Shown one piece after another: positions 3,729-44,649 of a stretch of 46,130 nucleotides of DNA. Position 1 is the stretch's first letter; each line of letters starts with the position of its first letter. The position numbers were made by a program, and so were the translations under genes. Under the pieces are notes generated by a model. It worked only from the letters and a program-made list of their open reading frames with translations, was not told where the DNA came from and made no database searches. This DNA is from Nocardiopsis suaedae (GTDB lineage Bacteria; Actinomycetota; Actinomycetes; Streptosporangiales; Streptosporangiaceae): the NCBI RefSeq assembly GCF_027706745.1, contig NZ_JAQFWP010000060.1:1-46130 (forward strand), in the 5' to 3' direction.

Positions 3729-4348
3729 CAGGAGGCCTCCCCGGCGCGCACCGCCTGGGTGAGGCGCTCGACGTACTTGGCGATGACGTCGACCTCGAGG
3801 TTGACCGGGTCGCCGGGGCCCTTGCGGCCCAGGGTGGTCAGTTCGAGGGTGGTCGGGATGAGGGAGACGGTGAAGGACCCGGGCTCGACCGCGGCGACGG
3901 TGAGGCTGACGCCGTCGACGGCGATGGAGCCCTTCTCCACCACGTAGCGGGCGAGGTGCCCGGGGAGGCTGAAGCGGAGGGTCTCCCAGCGCGCGGCGGG
4001 GGTGCGCTCCAGGAGTTCGGCGGTGCCGTCGACGTGGCCCTGCACGATGTGGCCGCCGAGCCGGTCGGAGACCTTGGCGGCGCGTTCGAGGTTGACCGGG
4101 GACCCGGGGCGCAGGGCGCCGAGGGAGGAGCGGTCCAGCGTCTCCTTCATCACGTCGGCGGTGAACACGCCGCCGTCGACGCCGGTGACGGTGAGGCAGA
4201 CCCCGTTGACGGCGATCGAGTCGCCGTGGGCCGCGTCGGAGGTGGTCTCGGGGCCGCGCAGCGCGATGCGGGCGGACTCCCCCTGGCTGTCGGAGAACGG
4301 CGTGATCTCGGCGACCTCGCCCAGTTCCTCCACGATTCCGGTGAACAA
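3728..4348 (-). CDS. ribE: Riboflavin synthase, alpha chain
   Basis: Riboflavin synthase dismutates two lumazine molecules to riboflavin and aminoribitylaminouracil. The 206-aa chain shows the tandem lumazine-binding barrels. Barrel one begins FTGIVEELG and contains [12 protein letters not shown]; barrel two contains [14 protein letters not shown] and [13 protein letters not shown]. The start codon is TTG (4346-4348), reading MFTGIVEE, with GGGGAAGG about seven bases upstream. It is the first gene of the rib operon, with the FMN aptamer 124 bases in front of it. In the leader RNA, GGTGAA before the SD can pair with TTCACC just after the TTG (4364-4369 with 4340-4345), which would enclose both SD and start. 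No ribD was seen in the window. Confidence 0.95.
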
Positions 4349-4471: not shown

Positions 4472-4601
4472 ACGCGTACGCCTCCCATCCGGACTTTCAC
4501 CGTCGGTACCGGAATTTCACCGGTTCCACCGGCCGATGGCTTCGGCCGGGTCGCGGACTATCACCGCCGGTTCGGATTTTCACCGACCCCGGAGCACGCG
4601 T
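4472..4601 (-). promoter_or_regulatory. FMN riboswitch aptamer (RFN element)
   Basis: Reading the minus strand, the conserved RFN blocks appear in order: a GGTCGGTGAAAATCCGAACC arm followed by GGCGGTGATAGTCCGCGA, a variable stem, GGTGAAATTCCGGTACCGAC and GGTGAAAGTCCGGATGGGAG. ACGCGT at 4596-4601 can pair with ACGCGT at 4472-4477 to close the base stem. It lies directly upstream of ribE. FMN binding is expected to turn off ribE-ribM-ribBA-ribH. Confidence 0.95.
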
Positions 4602-16074: not shown

Positions 16075-16631
16075 GATCGCGCTCCCGGAGTCCTTTGGCG
16101 ATCGATGTTACCTGGTGTGAGGTACATCATTCACCCGGAGATAAATTCACCGGGAATGTACGCCGGTTTTCCCGTACGGAACAGATCGCAACCGCTTCCG
16201 ATCCGCGGAAGAGCGGCAGGCGCCGACACCCGCATCAGCCTCGTCACCCCTACTGAACCGCACCTGTACGCGCACCCTCGGCGCCTTCACCCGCCACCGG
16301 TTCCACCGGCGGGCCGGAGGCCCCGGCGGAGTCGGCACCGCCCCCTCTGACCCCGCGGTCACCGCCCCGATCACCCAGGAGAGGGAGTGCGCACCATTTT
16401 CACCCTTGAGTTCCCGATTAGTGAAGTTTTAACCGGTATATGTTTCTCGAGGCCATGATGTCGACTTTCGAGGAAACGGCGAATCGGCGGCTCAGCGGGT
16501 GCCCCGCTTAAGCCCCCACCCGCCCACCAGGCCACCGGAGCGGCAGGAAGAAGGCGGCGACCGAGGCCTCCGTCAACGCCCCTCCCCGACTGGTCGGTGA
16601 CGGCGACAGGGTCGCCCGCCCCGCTCCCGCC
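16075..16631. other. AT-richer intergenic region upstream of the methyltransferase
   Basis: No gene is visible. Positions 16100-16200 and 16400-16480 are markedly richer in A+T than the window. A short inverted repeat CCCGG/CCGGG surrounds 16135-16155, and AGCGGG (16494-16499) / CCCGCT (16503-16508) forms a tight hairpin downstream of the class V aminotransferase gene. Promoter elements for the methyltransferase are expected here but no convincing hexamer pair was found. Confidence 0.4.
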
Positions 16632-17975
16632 TCAGGTGTCCGCCGGGACGACCGGGACCAGGCGCCCTTCGTCGTCGCGGTACTCCAGCTCCGGGCCGTG
16701 CTCCGCCAGGCGGGCCACCGCCGCCACCAGGCGGTCGACGTGCTCCTCCGTCGTGCCCAGGCCCAGGCTCGCGCGGACCGCCTGCTCGTGCCCCTCCGGC
16801 AGCAGGTGCCGGGTGAGCGGGTGCGCGCAGAACAGCCCGTCGCGCACGCCGATCCCGTACTCGGCCGACAGCGCCGCGGCCAGCAGCCCGGCCGGGACCC
16901 CGTCCACCACGAACGACACGATGCCCACCCGCGGGTGGCGCCCGTCCCACAACGACAGGTCGTGCACCCCCGGGACCGCCGCGAGCCCGGCGCGCAGCCG
17001 CCGCAGCAGGGCCTCCTCCCGCGTGTGCAGGCGCTCCTGGCCGGCTTCGATGAGGGTCGCGCAGGCGGCGGCGAGCGCCACCGCGCCCAGCACGTTCGGG
17101 CTGCCCGCCTCGTGCCGCGCGGGCAGGTCGTTCCAGCGCACGTCGTGGTCGGTGACGTTGCCGGTCGCCCCTCCCCCGGCCAGGTACGGGGCGGCCGCGC
17201 GCAGCCAGTCGGACCGGCCCGCCAGCACCCCCGCGCCGAAGGGCGCGTACAGCTTGTGCCCGGAGTAGGCGACGTAGTCGGCGCCGGACGCCTTCAGGTC
17301 GAATCGGCGGTGCGGCACGTACTGGGCGGCGTCGACCGCGATGCGCGCCCCCTCGGCGTGCGCCGCCTCCGCGAGCTCGCGCACCGGCCAGATCTCCCCG
17401 GTGACGTTGGAGGCGGCCGTCACGCACAGCAGCCGCGGCCCCTCGGGGGCGGCCCGCAGCGCCTCGCGCGCCGCCCGGACGGCCTCGCCCGGGGTCTCCG
17501 GCAGCGGCAGCCGCACGACCCGCCCGGCCCGGCTCCCCCGGTGCTCCCAGGGCAGCAGGTTGGCGTGGTGCTCGGCGGCGAAGACCACCACCGTGCAGCC
17601 GTCGGGGACGCAGCGCGCCAGCAGGTTGAGCGCGTCGGTGGTGCCGCGCACGAACACCAGCGCGTCGCCCGCGCCCACACCCGTGTACTCGGCGACGGTG
17701 CGCCGCGCCCGCTCGTAGGCGGCGGTGCTGACCTGCGACAGGTGCCCCGCGCCGCGGTGCACGCTCGCGTAGAGCGGCAGCGCCTCGTCCAGGGCGTCGC
17801 GGACGGCCTCCAGGCAGGGCGCGCTCGCGGCGTAGTCGAAGTTGGCGTAGTCCACGGTGCCGCCGGCGGCCAGCGGGACGGGCACGCCCGCGCCGAGCAC
17901 CGCGGGCGCTCCGGGGGTACACCCGCGGGCGGCCGGGACGGCGGAGGGGGCGGGGCTGTCTGCGACTGCGGTCAT
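16632..17975 (-). CDS. SufS-like class V aminotransferase / cysteine desulfurase, SAM-IV-controlled
   Basis: A PLP enzyme of 447 aa. It has EHHANLLPW (135-143), ASNVTGEIWPV, the PLP-anchoring Asp in AVDAAQYVPH (D215), SGHKLYAPFG with Schiff-base Lys241, and RDGLFCAHP with Cys383 and Arg378 where SufS-type desulfurases have their persulfide cysteine and substrate arginine. It therefore probably mobilises sulfur from cysteine or acts on a related substrate; the N-terminal 40 residues are an Ala/Pro-rich extension. The ATG at 17975 has GAGGAG at five bases; an adjacent in-frame GTG (17978) is too close to the SD. A SAM-IV riboswitch precedes it, tying it to methionine/cysteine/SAM economy. No suf genes are adjacent, so ordinary Fe-S assembly is not the obvious role. 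Confidence 0.85.
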   Translation of the reverse strand: MTAVADSPAPSAVPAARGCTPGAPAVLGAGVPVPLAAGGTVDYANFDYAASAPCLEAVRDALDEALPLYASVHRGAGHLSQVSTAAYERARRTVAEYTGVGAGDALVFVRGTTDALNLLARCVPDGCTVVVFAAEHHANLLPWEHRGSRAGRVVRLPLPETPGEAVRAAREALRAAPEGPRLLCVTAASNVTGEIWPVRELAEAAHAEGARIAVDAAQYVPHRRFDLKASGADYVAYSGHKLYAPFGAGVLAGRSDWLRAAAPYLAGGGATGNVTDHDVRWNDLPARHEAGSPNVLGAVALAAACATLIEAGQERLHTREEALLRRLRAGLAAVPGVHDLSLWDGRHPRVGIVSFVVDGVPAGLLAAALSAEYGIGVRDGLFCAHPLTRHLLPEGHEQAVRASLGLGTTEEHVDRLVAAVARLAEHGPELEYRDDEGRLVPVVPADT

Positions 17976-17979
17976 CACT

Positions 17980-18012
17980 GCTCCTCAGGGGTCATCGGGA
18001 CCCCAGAGGAGC
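17980..18012 (-). promoter_or_regulatory. SD-sequestering hairpin, expression platform of the SAM-IV riboswitch
   Basis: The arms GCTCCTC (18006-18012 on the minus strand) and GAGGAGC (17980-17986), with inner GGGGTC/GACCCC and a 5-base loop, form a 13-bp stem with one mismatch. The right arm is the GAGGAG ribosome-binding site, four bases from the ATG. This would block translation when formed. Confidence 0.7.
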
Positions 18013-18072
18013 CGGGAGCGTCCCCGTGCGGCGCCCTCGGCGCACGGCGGTGTCTCCGGCTCGAACCCGCGG

Positions 18073-18200
18073 GGGTCCGCGCTTGCCTGACACGTTGCGT
18101 CCATCGGTCGTGTCTCGACCTGGTCCTCACCCGGGGCACCCCACCGCGGTAGGAGGGTTGCCGGCCAGCGAGCCGGGGCTTGGCGCTGGCGCTCATGACC
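18073..18200 (-). promoter_or_regulatory. SAM-IV riboswitch
   Basis: On the minus strand the conserved SAM-IV sequence is almost complete: GGTCATGAGCGCCAGCG, AAGCCCCGGCTCGCTGGCCG, GCAACCCTCCTACCGCGGTG, GGGTGCCCCGGGTGAGGACC, then a variable hairpin and GGCAAGCGCGGACCC at the 3' end. It closely resembles the mycobacterial SAM-IV RNA as I remember it. It precedes the class V aminotransferase gene by about 100 bases. SAM-IV RNAs normally repress sulfur-metabolism genes of actinobacteria when SAM is abundant. Confidence 0.93.
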
Positions 18201-18208
18201 TATGCGGG

Positions 18209-18239
18209 ACTATAGCGCACCGTGTCCGGTTCAGCGCAA
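18209..18239 (-). promoter_or_regulatory. Candidate promoter of the SAM-IV transcript
   Basis: On the minus strand TTGCGC (18234-18239), a 19-base spacer and TATAGT (18209-18214) are followed after eight bases by the first nucleotide of the aptamer. The position relative to the aptamer supports the call; the long spacer weakens it. Confidence 0.5.
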
Positions 18240-18464
18240 GGCGGGGCCGGTGTGACCCGGGTGGCGGCGGGCGCGGCGGTCCACGCGGCCCTGTGCGGCG
18301 ACGGCGTGCGGCCCTGTGCCCGGCGGTCTGCGCGACGGCGTGCCCGGCGGCGCGTGTCCGGAAGGCGGCGGGTCGGTGTCCCCGCCGGTCACGGGGAGGC
18401 CGGGCCCACGGGCCGGGGGCGCTCCCGACGGCCGCCGCGGCGCGCCCCCGTCACGGGGCGAGCA

Positions 18465-18495
18465 TTGACAGGGGCGCACCGCTTGCGGGGATACT
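18465..18495 (+). promoter_or_regulatory. Candidate promoter of the glutaryl-CoA operon
   Basis: A perfect TTGACA (18465-18470) is followed, after 19 bases, by GATACT (18490-18495). It lies about 115 bases ahead of the DUF3870 start, in otherwise gene-free sequence (18240-18608). Confidence 0.5.
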
Positions 18496-18608
18496 TGGGC
18501 GACTGCCCTCCCGCTCAGGGCGCCCTGCCTTCCCAGGTCGCCCGTCCAGGCGCGAGACTCCAGCCCTACGGAGCCTCATGCTGCCCGGAAACGGAAAGGG
18601 CCGAAAAC

Positions 18609-26060: not shown

Positions 26061-27254
26061 TTAGGCGCCGACCGCGGACTTCAGGGCCTCGGCGCGGGCG
26101 GTCGACTCCCAGGTGAACTCCGGGACCTCGCGGCCGAAGTGGCCGTAGGCCGCGGTGTTGGAGTAGATCGGGCGCAGCAGGTCCAGGTCGCGCACGATCG
26201 CGGCCGGGCGCAGGTCGAAGACCTCCTTGACGGCCTTCTCGATGACGTCCGGGGCCACCTGCTCGGTGCCGAAGGTCTCGATGAAGACGCCGACCGGGGC
26301 GGCCTTGCCGATGGCGTAGGCCACCTGGACCTCGGCGCGCTCGGCCAGGCCGGCCGCGACGATGTTCTTGGCGACCCAGCGGGTGGCGTAGGCGGCCGAG
26401 CGGTCCACCTTGGACGGGTCCTTGCCGGAGAAGGCGCCGCCGCCGTGGCGGGCGTAGCCGCCGTAGGTGTCGACGATGATCTTGCGGCCGGTCAGGCCCG
26501 CGTCGCCCATCGGGCCGCCGATCTCGAAGCGGCCGGTCGGGTTGACCAGGAGCCGGTAGTCGTCGGCCTCCAGCCCGTACTGGGACACGATCGGCTCGAT
26601 CACGTGCTCCTTGACGTCGGGCGACAGGAGCTCGTTGAGGTCGATGTCCGGCGCGTGCTGGCTGGACAGCACCACGGTGTCCAGGCGGACCGGCGTGGTG
26701 CCCTCGTACTCGACCGTGACCTGCGTCTTGCCGTCGGGGCGCAGGTAGGGGACGGTGCCGTCGTGGCGGACCTTGGAGAGCTGCTGCGACAGCGCGTGGG
26801 CGAGCTTGATCGGCAGCGGCATGAGCTCGGGGGTCTCGCGGTTGGCGTACCCGAACATCAGGCCCTGGTCGCCGGCGCCCTGGCTGGCGAGCTTGTCCTC
26901 CTCCTTCTCGACCCGCGCCTCGTAGGCGGTGTCGACGCCCTGCGCGATGTCGGGGGACTGCTGGTCGATGGAGACCGAGACCCCGCAGGAGTCTCCGTCG
27001 AAGCCCTTGGCAGAGGAGTCGTAGCCGATCTCGAGGATCTTCTTACGGACGATCTCGGGGATGTCCACATAGGTCTTGGTGGTGACCTCACCGGCGATGT
27101 GCACCTGGCCGGTGGTGATCAGGGTCTCCACGGCGACCCGGCTGGCGGGGTCGTCCTTCAGCATCGCGTCGAGGATCGCGTCACTGATCTGGTCGGCCAT
27201 CTTGTCGGGGTGGCCCTCGGTGACCGACTCGGAGGTGAAAAGGCGACGGGACAC
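26061..27254 (-). CDS. metK: S-adenosylmethionine synthetase
   Basis: Makes SAM from methionine and ATP. The 397-aa protein has [20 protein letters not shown] (ATP and Mg2+ binding near residue 15), the [12 protein letters not shown] loop, [21 protein letters not shown] and [19 protein letters not shown] with phosphate-binding Lys/Asp, all intact. The start is GTG, with AGGAG nine bases upstream. It is the first of the conserved run metK-coaBC-rpoZ-gmk-mihF, read on the minus strand, but is the most downstream of them; an approximately 360-base gap to coaBC suggests its own promoter. The product is the ligand of the SAM-IV riboswitch found at 18.1 kb. Confidence 0.97.
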
Positions 27255-43097: not shown

Positions 43098-43766
43098 GTG
43101 GAGACCGACACCGGGCCGCTCGACCTGTGGGAGCCCGCCCCTCCCGCCTTCGTCCACGCGCTGCCGGCGCTGCTGGAGGTCTACACGGCCGCGATGGAGC
43201 CGCCCGCCGAGCAGCTCCCCGGGCGGCGCACCATCATGGAGCAGCACGCCCGCCACCCCCACTTCAAGGCGGTGCTGGCGCTGCAGCCCGCCGGAGACCC
43301 CGCCGCCGGTCCCCCGGACGGCCCCGGCGCCGCCCCCTCGCCGCCCCGCCTGGCCGGGTTCGCCTACGGCTTCCGCGGGCACCGCGGGCAGTGGTGGTTC
43401 GACGTGGTCACCGAGGAGCTGCGGCGGCGCGACCCGGCCGCCGAGCGGCGCTGGTTCCGCGACACCTTCGAGGTGGCCGAGGTCCACGTGCGCCCCGACA
43501 TGCAGGGGCGCGGCATCGGCCGCGCCCTCCTGGAAAGCCTCACGGCGGCGCGCCCGGAGCGCGCCGCCGTGCTGTCCACCCGCACGGGTTCCACCGTCGC
43601 GCGGCGGCTCTACGGCTCGTGCGGGTTCATCGACGTGCTGCCGGAGTTCTCCTTTCCCGGCAGCCCGGATCAGCCCTTCGCGGTCATGGCCGCGCGCCTG
43701 CCACTGCGGGGGCGCGGTCGGCGGCGATCCGCCGGTAGATCTCGCGGGTGGCGGTGGACTGGTTGA
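43098..43766 (+). CDS. GNAT-family N-acetyltransferase
   Basis: A 222-aa acyl-CoA-dependent acetyltransferase fold. The acetyl-CoA pyrophosphate-binding motif A is [20 protein letters not shown] (about 133-152, QGRGIG turn), followed by [22 protein letters not shown] (motif B). A Pro/Gly/Ala-rich insertion at about 67-84 separates the first strands. The substrate is unknown. The start is GTG. The final 83 bases overlap the 3' end of metF on the opposite strand and encode an Arg/Gly-rich tail that is probably not part of the fold. Confidence 0.82.
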
Positions 43767-44649
43767 AGGTGATGAAGTGGATGCCCGGCGCGCCCTCGTC
43801 GAGCAGCCGCTCGCAGAGCCGGTGCGCCTGGTCCAGGCCCAGCTCGCGCACGGCCTCCGGGTCGTCCTTGACCTTCTCGAACTCCTCGGCCAGGTGGCGC
43901 GGGAAGGGGGCGCCGGAGAGCTGCTCGGAGCGCTCGATGGTGCCGTACTTCACCACCGGCATGATCTCCGGGATGATCGGCGTCTCGCACCCCTTGGCGG
44001 CCACCCGGTCGCGCAGCCGCAGGTAGTCGTCGGCGTCGAAGAACATCTGGGTGATGGCGTAGTCGGCGCCGGCGCGGCACTTCTGCACCAGGTAGCGCAC
44101 GTCGGTCTCGACGTCCTCCGAGCGCGGGTGCTTGTAGGGGAACGCCGCGACACCCACGGAGAAGTCCCCGCTCTCCTTGATCAGGCGGACCAGCTCCTCG
44201 GCGTACTCCAGGCCGTCGGGGTGCTTGACCCACTCGCCCAGCGGGTCGCCGGGCGGGTCGCCGCGCAGCGCGAGGAGGTTGGTCACACCGACGGCGGCGA
44301 AGCGCCCGATGAGGTGGCGCAGCTCGCGTACCGAGTGGTCGACCGCGGTCAGGTGGGCGACCGGGAGCAGCGTGGTGTCGGTGGCCATCTGCTCGGTGAT
44401 CTCCACCGTGCGGTCCCTGGTCCCCCCGCCGGCTCCGTAGGTGACCGACACGAAGGACGGTCCGAGCGCCTCGATCTCGCGGATGACCGTCCAGAGCCTC
44501 TTCAGGCCCTCTTCGGTCTTCGGCGGGAAGAACTCGAAGGAGAATGTCGGTTCGCCGGCGTTGAGAAGGTCGCGAATGTCCCGGGGCCGGGGGGTGGGCA
44601 CAGTCGCGGTTCCGTTGGTTGTCGGTGAGCCAAACATGCCCTCCACCAT
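43684..44649 (-). CDS. metF: 5,10-methylenetetrahydrofolate reductase
   Basis: FAD enzyme making 5-methyltetrahydrofolate for methionine synthesis. The 321-aa barrel has [18 protein letters not shown] (catalytic Glu), [63 protein letters not shown] and [17 protein letters not shown]. The start is uncertain: ATG at 44649 has no clear SD, while an in-frame ATG at 44637 has GGAGGG immediately before it, too close. The mRNA may be short-leadered. It is divergent from the polyprenyl synthase gene (81 bases) and convergent with, and overlapping, the GNAT gene. Confidence 0.94.

Follow-up and report, generated by a model that had tools for sequence, protein, structure and literature searches.

A SAM-IV riboswitch preceding a SufS-like enzyme in Nocardiopsis suaedae and its possible place in homocysteine synthesis

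SAM-IV is a known class of RNA switch that senses S-adenosylmethionine (SAM), a product of methionine, and the soil bacterium Nocardiopsis suaedae carries one on the contig analysed here (hereafter the window, the whole stretch of 46,130 nucleotides). A Streptomyces lividans report lists SAM-IV (RF00634) upstream of SLIV_26975, a cysteine desulfurase (PMC8079986), and in S. clavuligerus a SAM-IV is listed at CRV15_21540, a class V PLP enzyme, together with a premature transcript seen by RNA-seq (PMC8269248). The arrangement of SAM-IV with a cysteine desulfurase is already in print, and the window, which shares with these two loci the riboswitch class and, by annotation, the gene family, is a further case of it and not a discovery. 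SAM-IV is also reported upstream of the O-acetylhomoserine sulfhydrylase MAV_4315 in M. avium (PMC3774663) and as a regulator of metXY (PMC4239095); these actinomycete systems have the riboswitch class in common with the window, but their target is a homocysteine synthase rather than a desulfurase. New here are a complementarity between the aptamer's P1 helix and the arm of a downstream hairpin, a separate SufS together with a SAM-I, metM, metO gene order, and a six-codon leader frame in Streptomyces. We read the window's SAM-IV as a SAM-OFF translational switch on a stand-alone SufS-like desulfurase that would supply cysteine sulfur for homocysteine synthesis, and give this reading a rough probability of 0.55.

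An earlier reading made from the sequence alone (the sequence-only reading) had placed a SAM-IV RNA at 18073-18200 on the minus strand and proposed an Infernal search with the Rfam model as a check. Such a search of the window with cmscan bears this out, with a match at 18200-18074 that covers the full model (1-116) at 103.2 bits, well above the gathering score of 38 (E 5.2e-18). It is the single copy found in the 7.0-Mb assembly. Across an alignment of 21 of the 31 family SAM-IV sequences, the loop pseudoknot is paired in 105 of 105 cells, with a compensatory change in 2 of its 5 pairs and the other 3 invariant. The putative -10-like hexamer TATAGT would place the transcript start at about 18202. 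By eye, AT-rich hexamers resembling it stand at roughly equal spacing before SAM-IV in related loci; a simple sigma-70 scan around the window leader returned no promoter site.

Downstream of the aptamer, the Shine-Dalgarno (SD) sequence GAGGAG (17986-17981) is paired inside a hairpin of sequence GCTCCTC-T-GGGGTC / CCGAT / GACCCC-T-GAGGAGC, with 7 + 6 = 13 pairs and one U-U mismatch. This is the 13-bp hairpin that the sequence-only reading had described as capturing GAGGAG, and its limits proved exact. The 48-nt region folds at -26.5 kcal/mol as against -15.1 (sd 2.6) for shuffled sequences (z -4.4), a value matched by 0 of 200 shuffles. Judged by SD spacing, ATG 17975 (447 aa) is a more plausible start for the enzyme than GTG 17978, which is also in frame. 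The sequence shows no U-run after the hairpin, and a scan of positions 16400-18600 found no terminator-like site, on which terminator control in the window was rejected.

Table 1. Positions of the riboswitch, leader and enzyme features in the window, and of the SAM-I locus elsewhere in the same genome.
Feature	Position	Strand	Basis
-35-like TTGCGC, putative promoter	18234-18239	-	read from sequence; putative
-10-like TATAGT, putative, 8 nt before aptamer	18209-18214	-	read from sequence; putative
SAM-IV riboswitch aptamer (RF00634)	18074-18200	-	cmscan
P1 3' strand, GGACC + CC; could pair with P1 5' strand or with 17998-18004	18072-18078	-	complementarity
GAGCCGG, complement of 18009-18015	18056-18062	-	constrained fold
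13-bp sequestering hairpin	17980-18012	-	read from sequence; shuffle-tested fold
GGGGTCC, hairpin 5' arm open to invasion by P1 3' strand	17998-18004	-	complementarity, constrained fold
Shine-Dalgarno GAGGAG	17981-17986	-	read from sequence; 5 nt before ATG 17975
SufS-like class V PLP enzyme, 447 aa, ATG start	16632-17975	-	PF00266 and TIGR01979 matches
SAM-I riboswitch, metM-like and metO-like genes	L152 2988-4782, contig 26, own genome		profile matches

The enzyme behind the hairpin matches Pfam PF00266 (Aminotran_5) at 268 bits. Its best NCBIfam model is TIGR01979 (SufS), at 271.4 bits and under the cut-off of 475.1; its scores also fall short of the CsdA cut-off, and it reaches 62.9 bits against the EgtE model (cut-off 400) and 130 bits against SclA. 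The solved structures most like it are cysteine desulfurases of the SufS, CsdB and CsdA types, and the closest named relative is that of Nocardiopsis endophytica RSe5-2 (97% identity). H136, K241, R378, C383 and R401, numbered from ATG 17975 and with roles that we assign from SufS, do not vary across the 21 aligned sequences (relatives 44-85% identical), and neither does the context R-x-G-x-x-C-A of C383. Lys241 and Cys383, described as intact in the sequence-only reading, are among these residues. The alignment leaves out loci with a stop in the matched stretch (L006, L020, L030), others that were cut short or split (L011, L017, L022, L029), and also L003, L009, L023 and L027, which contain no stop.

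The enzyme's neighbours scanned in the window belong to families other than suf or isc, in line with the sequence-only reading, which had noted no such partners next to it. The genome has a second copy on another contig (L142), a true SufS with 527.6 bits against TIGR01979, above the cut-off, that adjoins a SufC-like ABC ATPase, a NifU_N gene and a PF01883 gene. Siting beside suf genes is usual for SufS, if not strictly required. Because the window enzyme scores below the SufS cut-off and a separate true SufS lies beside suf-type genes, we read it as a diverged paralogue that stands alone and has the look of a working desulfurase, although the curated cut-off does not class it as SufS; the separate SufS also supports the earlier suggestion of a role outside Fe-S assembly. 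With the SufS/CsdA type II desulfurases it has in common the fold family, the Lys and Cys active-site motifs and the best solved relatives. Unlike them, it scores below both cut-offs, has no suf partners among the scanned neighbours and lies behind a SAM riboswitch.

The regulatory linkage between SAM-IV and the enzyme is well supported by its spread. Within the family, 120 genomes were searched: 81 contain SAM-IV and 79 contain the enzyme (E up to 1e-60). Of the 80 enzyme matches, 78 are preceded on their own strand by a SAM-IV no more than 1 kb away. A model made from 21 family sequences, of which a few come from the very same strains, detects SAM-IV in 77 of 80 named loci recovered with the enzyme alignment, every time directly upstream of the enzyme match; of the three loci without it, two (L065, L111) have available DNA that starts only about 50 bases ahead of that match. 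At the class level (344 genomes, the enzyme in 133 and SAM-IV in 239), SAM-IV is present in 126 of 133 enzyme-positive genomes as against 113 of 211 enzyme-negative ones. Among the best 150 SAM-IV places listed for these 344 genomes, 75 lie in front of the enzyme and at least 50 in front of MetY, with the enzyme and MetY places partly copied by hand. The remaining 25 were assigned to neither; some may precede MetY genes beyond those listed, and by eye none adjoins a match in the full enzyme list. In at least six genomes, MetY and the enzyme each have a SAM-IV of their own. A search for a conserved partner gene within about 8 kb of the 80 named loci (26 genus labels) gave no such gene, the widest neighbour cluster reaching 10 labels. 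Neighbour clusters were rejected as partners, those scanned being unrelated or without a Pfam match; the scanned neighbours included a Na+/H+ exchanger, a tRNA synthetase, a pseudouridine synthase, a cytochrome P450, signal peptidase II and NuoD.

A second SAM riboswitch in the same genome brings in homocysteine synthesis, at a locus separate from the enzyme. Here a SAM-I match (72 bits, the only SAM-I found in the genome) precedes a second threonine-synthase-like gene and then a gene for a 91-aa ThiS-family protein ending Gly-Gly. MetM is described as making homocysteine from O-phosphohomoserine (PMC12172450, citing Hasebe et al. 2024), and the same source has the metO-like gene annotated as sulfur-carrier family and an upstream SAM riboswitch at S. 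albulus metM; by sequence, the genes after SAM-I in our genome match MetM and MetO as that source describes them. The order SAM-I, metM, metO with its Gly-Gly end holds in 20 of 20 genomes hand-picked from the metM matches, three of them without an enzyme match. Thiocarboxylated MetO is the sulfur donor of this route, and MetY, the other common SAM-IV target, likewise makes homocysteine. The S. lividans report places a SAM-I before SLIV_16930-SLIV_16925 under 'threonine biosynthesis' (PMC8079986), and these two could be metM and metO genes.

Counted per genome with kinship ignored, the enzyme occurs in 66 of 119 genomes with metM and no MetY, 41 of 98 with both, 26 of 120 with MetY only and 0 of 7 with neither (344 genomes in all). 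With metM matches taken at E 1e-70, 107 of these genomes have both enzyme and metM, 26 the enzyme only, 110 metM only and 101 neither. Strict coupling of enzyme and metM was rejected on these counts, neither gene requiring the other, and no metM or metO match lies within the 80 named enzyme loci. Counting against our main reading, the genome also encodes a cystathionine gamma-synthase scoring above its cut-off. An independent parallel comes from the Vibrionales, where csd, a desulfurase, is a predicted MetJ target (PMC4239095). Taken together, the SAM-I, metM, metO order, MetY under SAM-IV, the pathway counts and the csd/MetJ parallel place the enzyme in a SAM-repressed homocysteine regulon, most simply as its sulfur supplier.

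Comparison of genomes favours a supply of sulfur to homocysteine synthesis over the recycling of cysteine or methionine that the sequence-only reading had considered. The enzyme would take cysteine sulfur as a persulfide on Cys383, and this sulfur would go to the metM/metO route where present, our genome included, and to the MetY route elsewhere; both the desulfurase activity and the sulfur acceptor are inferred. A desulfurase for the MetM/MetO route is proposed by the present analysis, the link between the enzyme and MetO not having been found in print within the open-licence literature searched. In a more specific form, the enzyme would be the dedicated sulfur donor of MetM/MetO, with SAM repressing both carrier loading (through SAM-IV, in Streptomyces by way of the six-codon frame) and carrier use (through SAM-I); we regard this form as possible, at somewhat less than an even chance. 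If true, it would identify where a methionine pathway described recently in Streptomyces and relatives obtains its sulfur, and one metabolite would shut off two parts of the pathway through two riboswitch classes.

As for the switch itself, the window strand 18078-18072 (GGACC and two further bases) is the exact complement of GGGGTCC at 18004-17998. When SAM is scarce, this P1 3' strand would pair with the hairpin arm, and the resulting helix would break P1, enclose the anti-SD and free GAGGAG, so that the enzyme is made. With SAM bound, P1 would retain its 3' strand, the 13-bp hairpin would form and the ribosome-binding site would be hidden. In the constrained fold of the window leader, GAGCCGG at 18056-18062 would reinforce the open state. 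The response to SAM and the choice between the two folds are inferred. If true, one and the same strand would shut the aptamer in one state and expose the ribosome-binding site in the other, which makes for a testable switch.

Comparison of leaders supports the pairing in part. We assembled 105 loci (28 of the 31 from the family and 77 of the 80 named), with start codons chosen by script on SD spacing; 84 of the leaders are no longer than 110 nt, and 80 of these short leaders entered the complementarity test after four under 25 nt were omitted (L073, L096, L097, L114). In 67 of the 80, the P1 3' strand can form at least 6 pairs (G-U allowed) with leader sequence ahead of the SD, whereas base shuffling, repeated 200 times, gave 7.8 such leaders on average and never more than 15; the other 13 are without 6-bp complementarity. 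Three short leaders are identical to others, and among the 77 distinct ones the count is 65. All 21 long-spaced Streptomyces leaders have kept 7 pairs with the P1 3' strand. Both sides have changed at two loci, P1 GGATT standing with arm GGAATCC (L012) and GGACT with GGAGTCC (L089), one locus each. GATCC, the exact partner of P1 GGATC, is found in 4 of 12 short leaders with GGATC (as GGGATCC) compared with 2 of 34 with GGACC, and in 4 of 8 Streptomyces leaders with GGATC compared with 0 of 12 with GGACC. This widely kept complementarity, accompanied in a few lineages by changes on both sides, suggests a SAM-OFF translational switch.

Other features of the same leaders count against the exchange. 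Covariation between P1 and the arm is limited: GGTCC precedes the SD in 64 of the 80 short leaders regardless of the P1 sequence, the arm being nearly constant. In 41 of the 80 leaders P1 finds an exact Watson-Crick partner (mean of 6.2 and maximum of 13 in shuffles); the figure is 4 of 18 for leaders with P1 GGGCC and 0 of 13 for those with GGGCT, where G-U pairs are mostly used. With the P1 strand free, the window leader has a best fold of -65.4 kcal/mol that holds the strand in a local hairpin and leaves the SD 2% free; the forced open fold (-55.7 kcal/mol, SD 60% free) is 9.7 kcal/mol less stable. A 231-nt fold of the window also retains the SD hairpin. In favour of the exchange, the fold with the P1 strand blocked (-57.0 kcal/mol, SD 0% free) lies within 1.3 kcal/mol of the forced open fold. 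Unconstrained folding of the window and the 84 leaders did not favour the proposed open state, and proof by energies failed in that set. Mean SD accessibility over the 84 leaders is 0.30 with or without the P1 strand, rising by more than 0.2 in 6. Forcing the P1/arm helix in 67 leaders frees the SD further in 38, leaves it unchanged in 14 and hides it more in 15; blocking just the arm gives an accessibility of 0.39, little above the 0.35 of a random block. The window fold of -65.4 kcal/mol with the SD hidden, and an arm that hardly varies with P1, weaken our preferred explanation and strengthen the case for another platform. The exchange nevertheless remains the platform that we think most probable: its complementarity exceeds that of shuffled leaders by a wide margin, both sides have changed in a few lineages, and equilibrium folding takes no account of co-transcriptional folding.

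Streptomyces loci present a variant of the leader. Whereas the SD in the window hairpin serves the enzyme, in 21 of 22 Streptomyces loci examined (a set separate from the S. lividans and S. clavuligerus loci above, with L117 as the exception) the SD near the aptamer serves a conserved six-codon frame, M-(S/I/N/V)-(K/Q)-R-M-R-stop, whose last Arg codon varies at the third base. The frame's SD lies next to or in the switching region, and in 21 Streptomyces loci the enzyme itself starts 128-300 nt after the aptamer. The frame occurs at L077, L081, L083, L090, L091, L098, L100, L102, L104, L109, L110, L113, L116, L118, L120, L123, L125, L126, L127, L129 and L133. This layout suggests that in Streptomyces SAM acts first on the leader frame.

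The premature transcript reported at the homologous S. clavuligerus locus (PMC8269248) and the 128-300 nt between aptamer and enzyme start in Streptomyces would both fit a leader that works by transcription attenuation, and the failure of plain folding to favour the open state would fit some platform other than the P1/arm exchange. In the window, however, the hairpin pairs the SD directly and has no U-run after it, and the terminator scan was empty. The SD near the switch in Streptomyces serves a short frame, and premature ends may follow its lost translation, which would also fit the S. clavuligerus transcript. We consider attenuation or another platform improbable, if well short of negligible.

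What the enzyme does can also be read in other ways. It might be a second general desulfurase, for Fe-S repair, tRNA thiolation, or thiamine or molybdopterin sulfur, on which SAM control is incidental; its sequence is closest to SufS/CsdA, and the S. lividans report lists the desulfurase under thiamine metabolism (PMC8079986). The same genome already has a SufS beside suf-type genes, however, and the enzyme is tied to SAM-IV, which precedes MetY in many other class genomes, so that we hold a general role to be unlikely. A score of 271 bits where the NCBIfam SufS cut-off is 475, and the fact that class V enzymes include EgtE-type beta-lyases, would allow another C-S or C-Se lyase, such as a selenocysteine lyase, a cysteine sulfinate desulfinase, or a beta-lyase releasing homocysteine from cystathionine. 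Against such a lyase, which we think quite doubtful, the EgtE (63 bits) and SclA (130 bits) models score lower still, and Cys383 and its motif, invariant in 21 of 21 sequences, would presumably not be needed by a simple beta-lyase. We keep to the SAM-repressed, sulfur-supplying desulfurase as the main reading.

SAM-IV also occurs apart from the enzyme: 20 of the 98 family SAM-IV places have no enzyme match within 1 kb, two of which (G016, G037) have enzyme-like pieces under the threshold. From 19 of these 20, proteins picked by base composition were examined in two scans of ten each, and no uniform target emerged among the proteins scanned. They include ABC transporter parts, LuxR-type regulators, an alkylhydroperoxidase-domain protein, NuoD, a GST-domain protein and an FAD-NAD(P)-binding protein, with one protein lacking a match. 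At L036, L038, L045 and L049, SAM-IV precedes ABC transporter genes with polyamine- and peptide/nickel-like substrate-binding proteins, which are candidates for methionine or organosulfur uptake. Near the SAM-IV of L044, L048 and L049 lie matches, mostly below cut-offs, to TIGR04028-TIGR04030, a cluster of genes for an ABC binding protein and for CMD and alkylhydroperoxidase domains. SAM-IV precedes genes with LuxR-type (GerE) domains at L043 and L047; at L042 and L043 we take the downstream frame, by eye, to be polyketide-synthase-like. At L037 (G079), a SAM-IV without an enzyme match is followed 224 nt on by a NuoD-like frame. Since a NuoD-like gene stands just after the enzyme in 9 named loci, the enzyme may have been lost at L037 and the riboswitch left behind.

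The window also holds genes for an S-adenosylmethionine synthetase (26064-27254) and a methylenetetrahydrofolate reductase (43687-44649), neither with an upstream Rfam match at the gathering threshold. It also carries an FMN riboswitch (95.2 bits, 4473-4600) upstream of a minus-strand gene at 3731-4348, which presumably encodes a riboflavin synthase.
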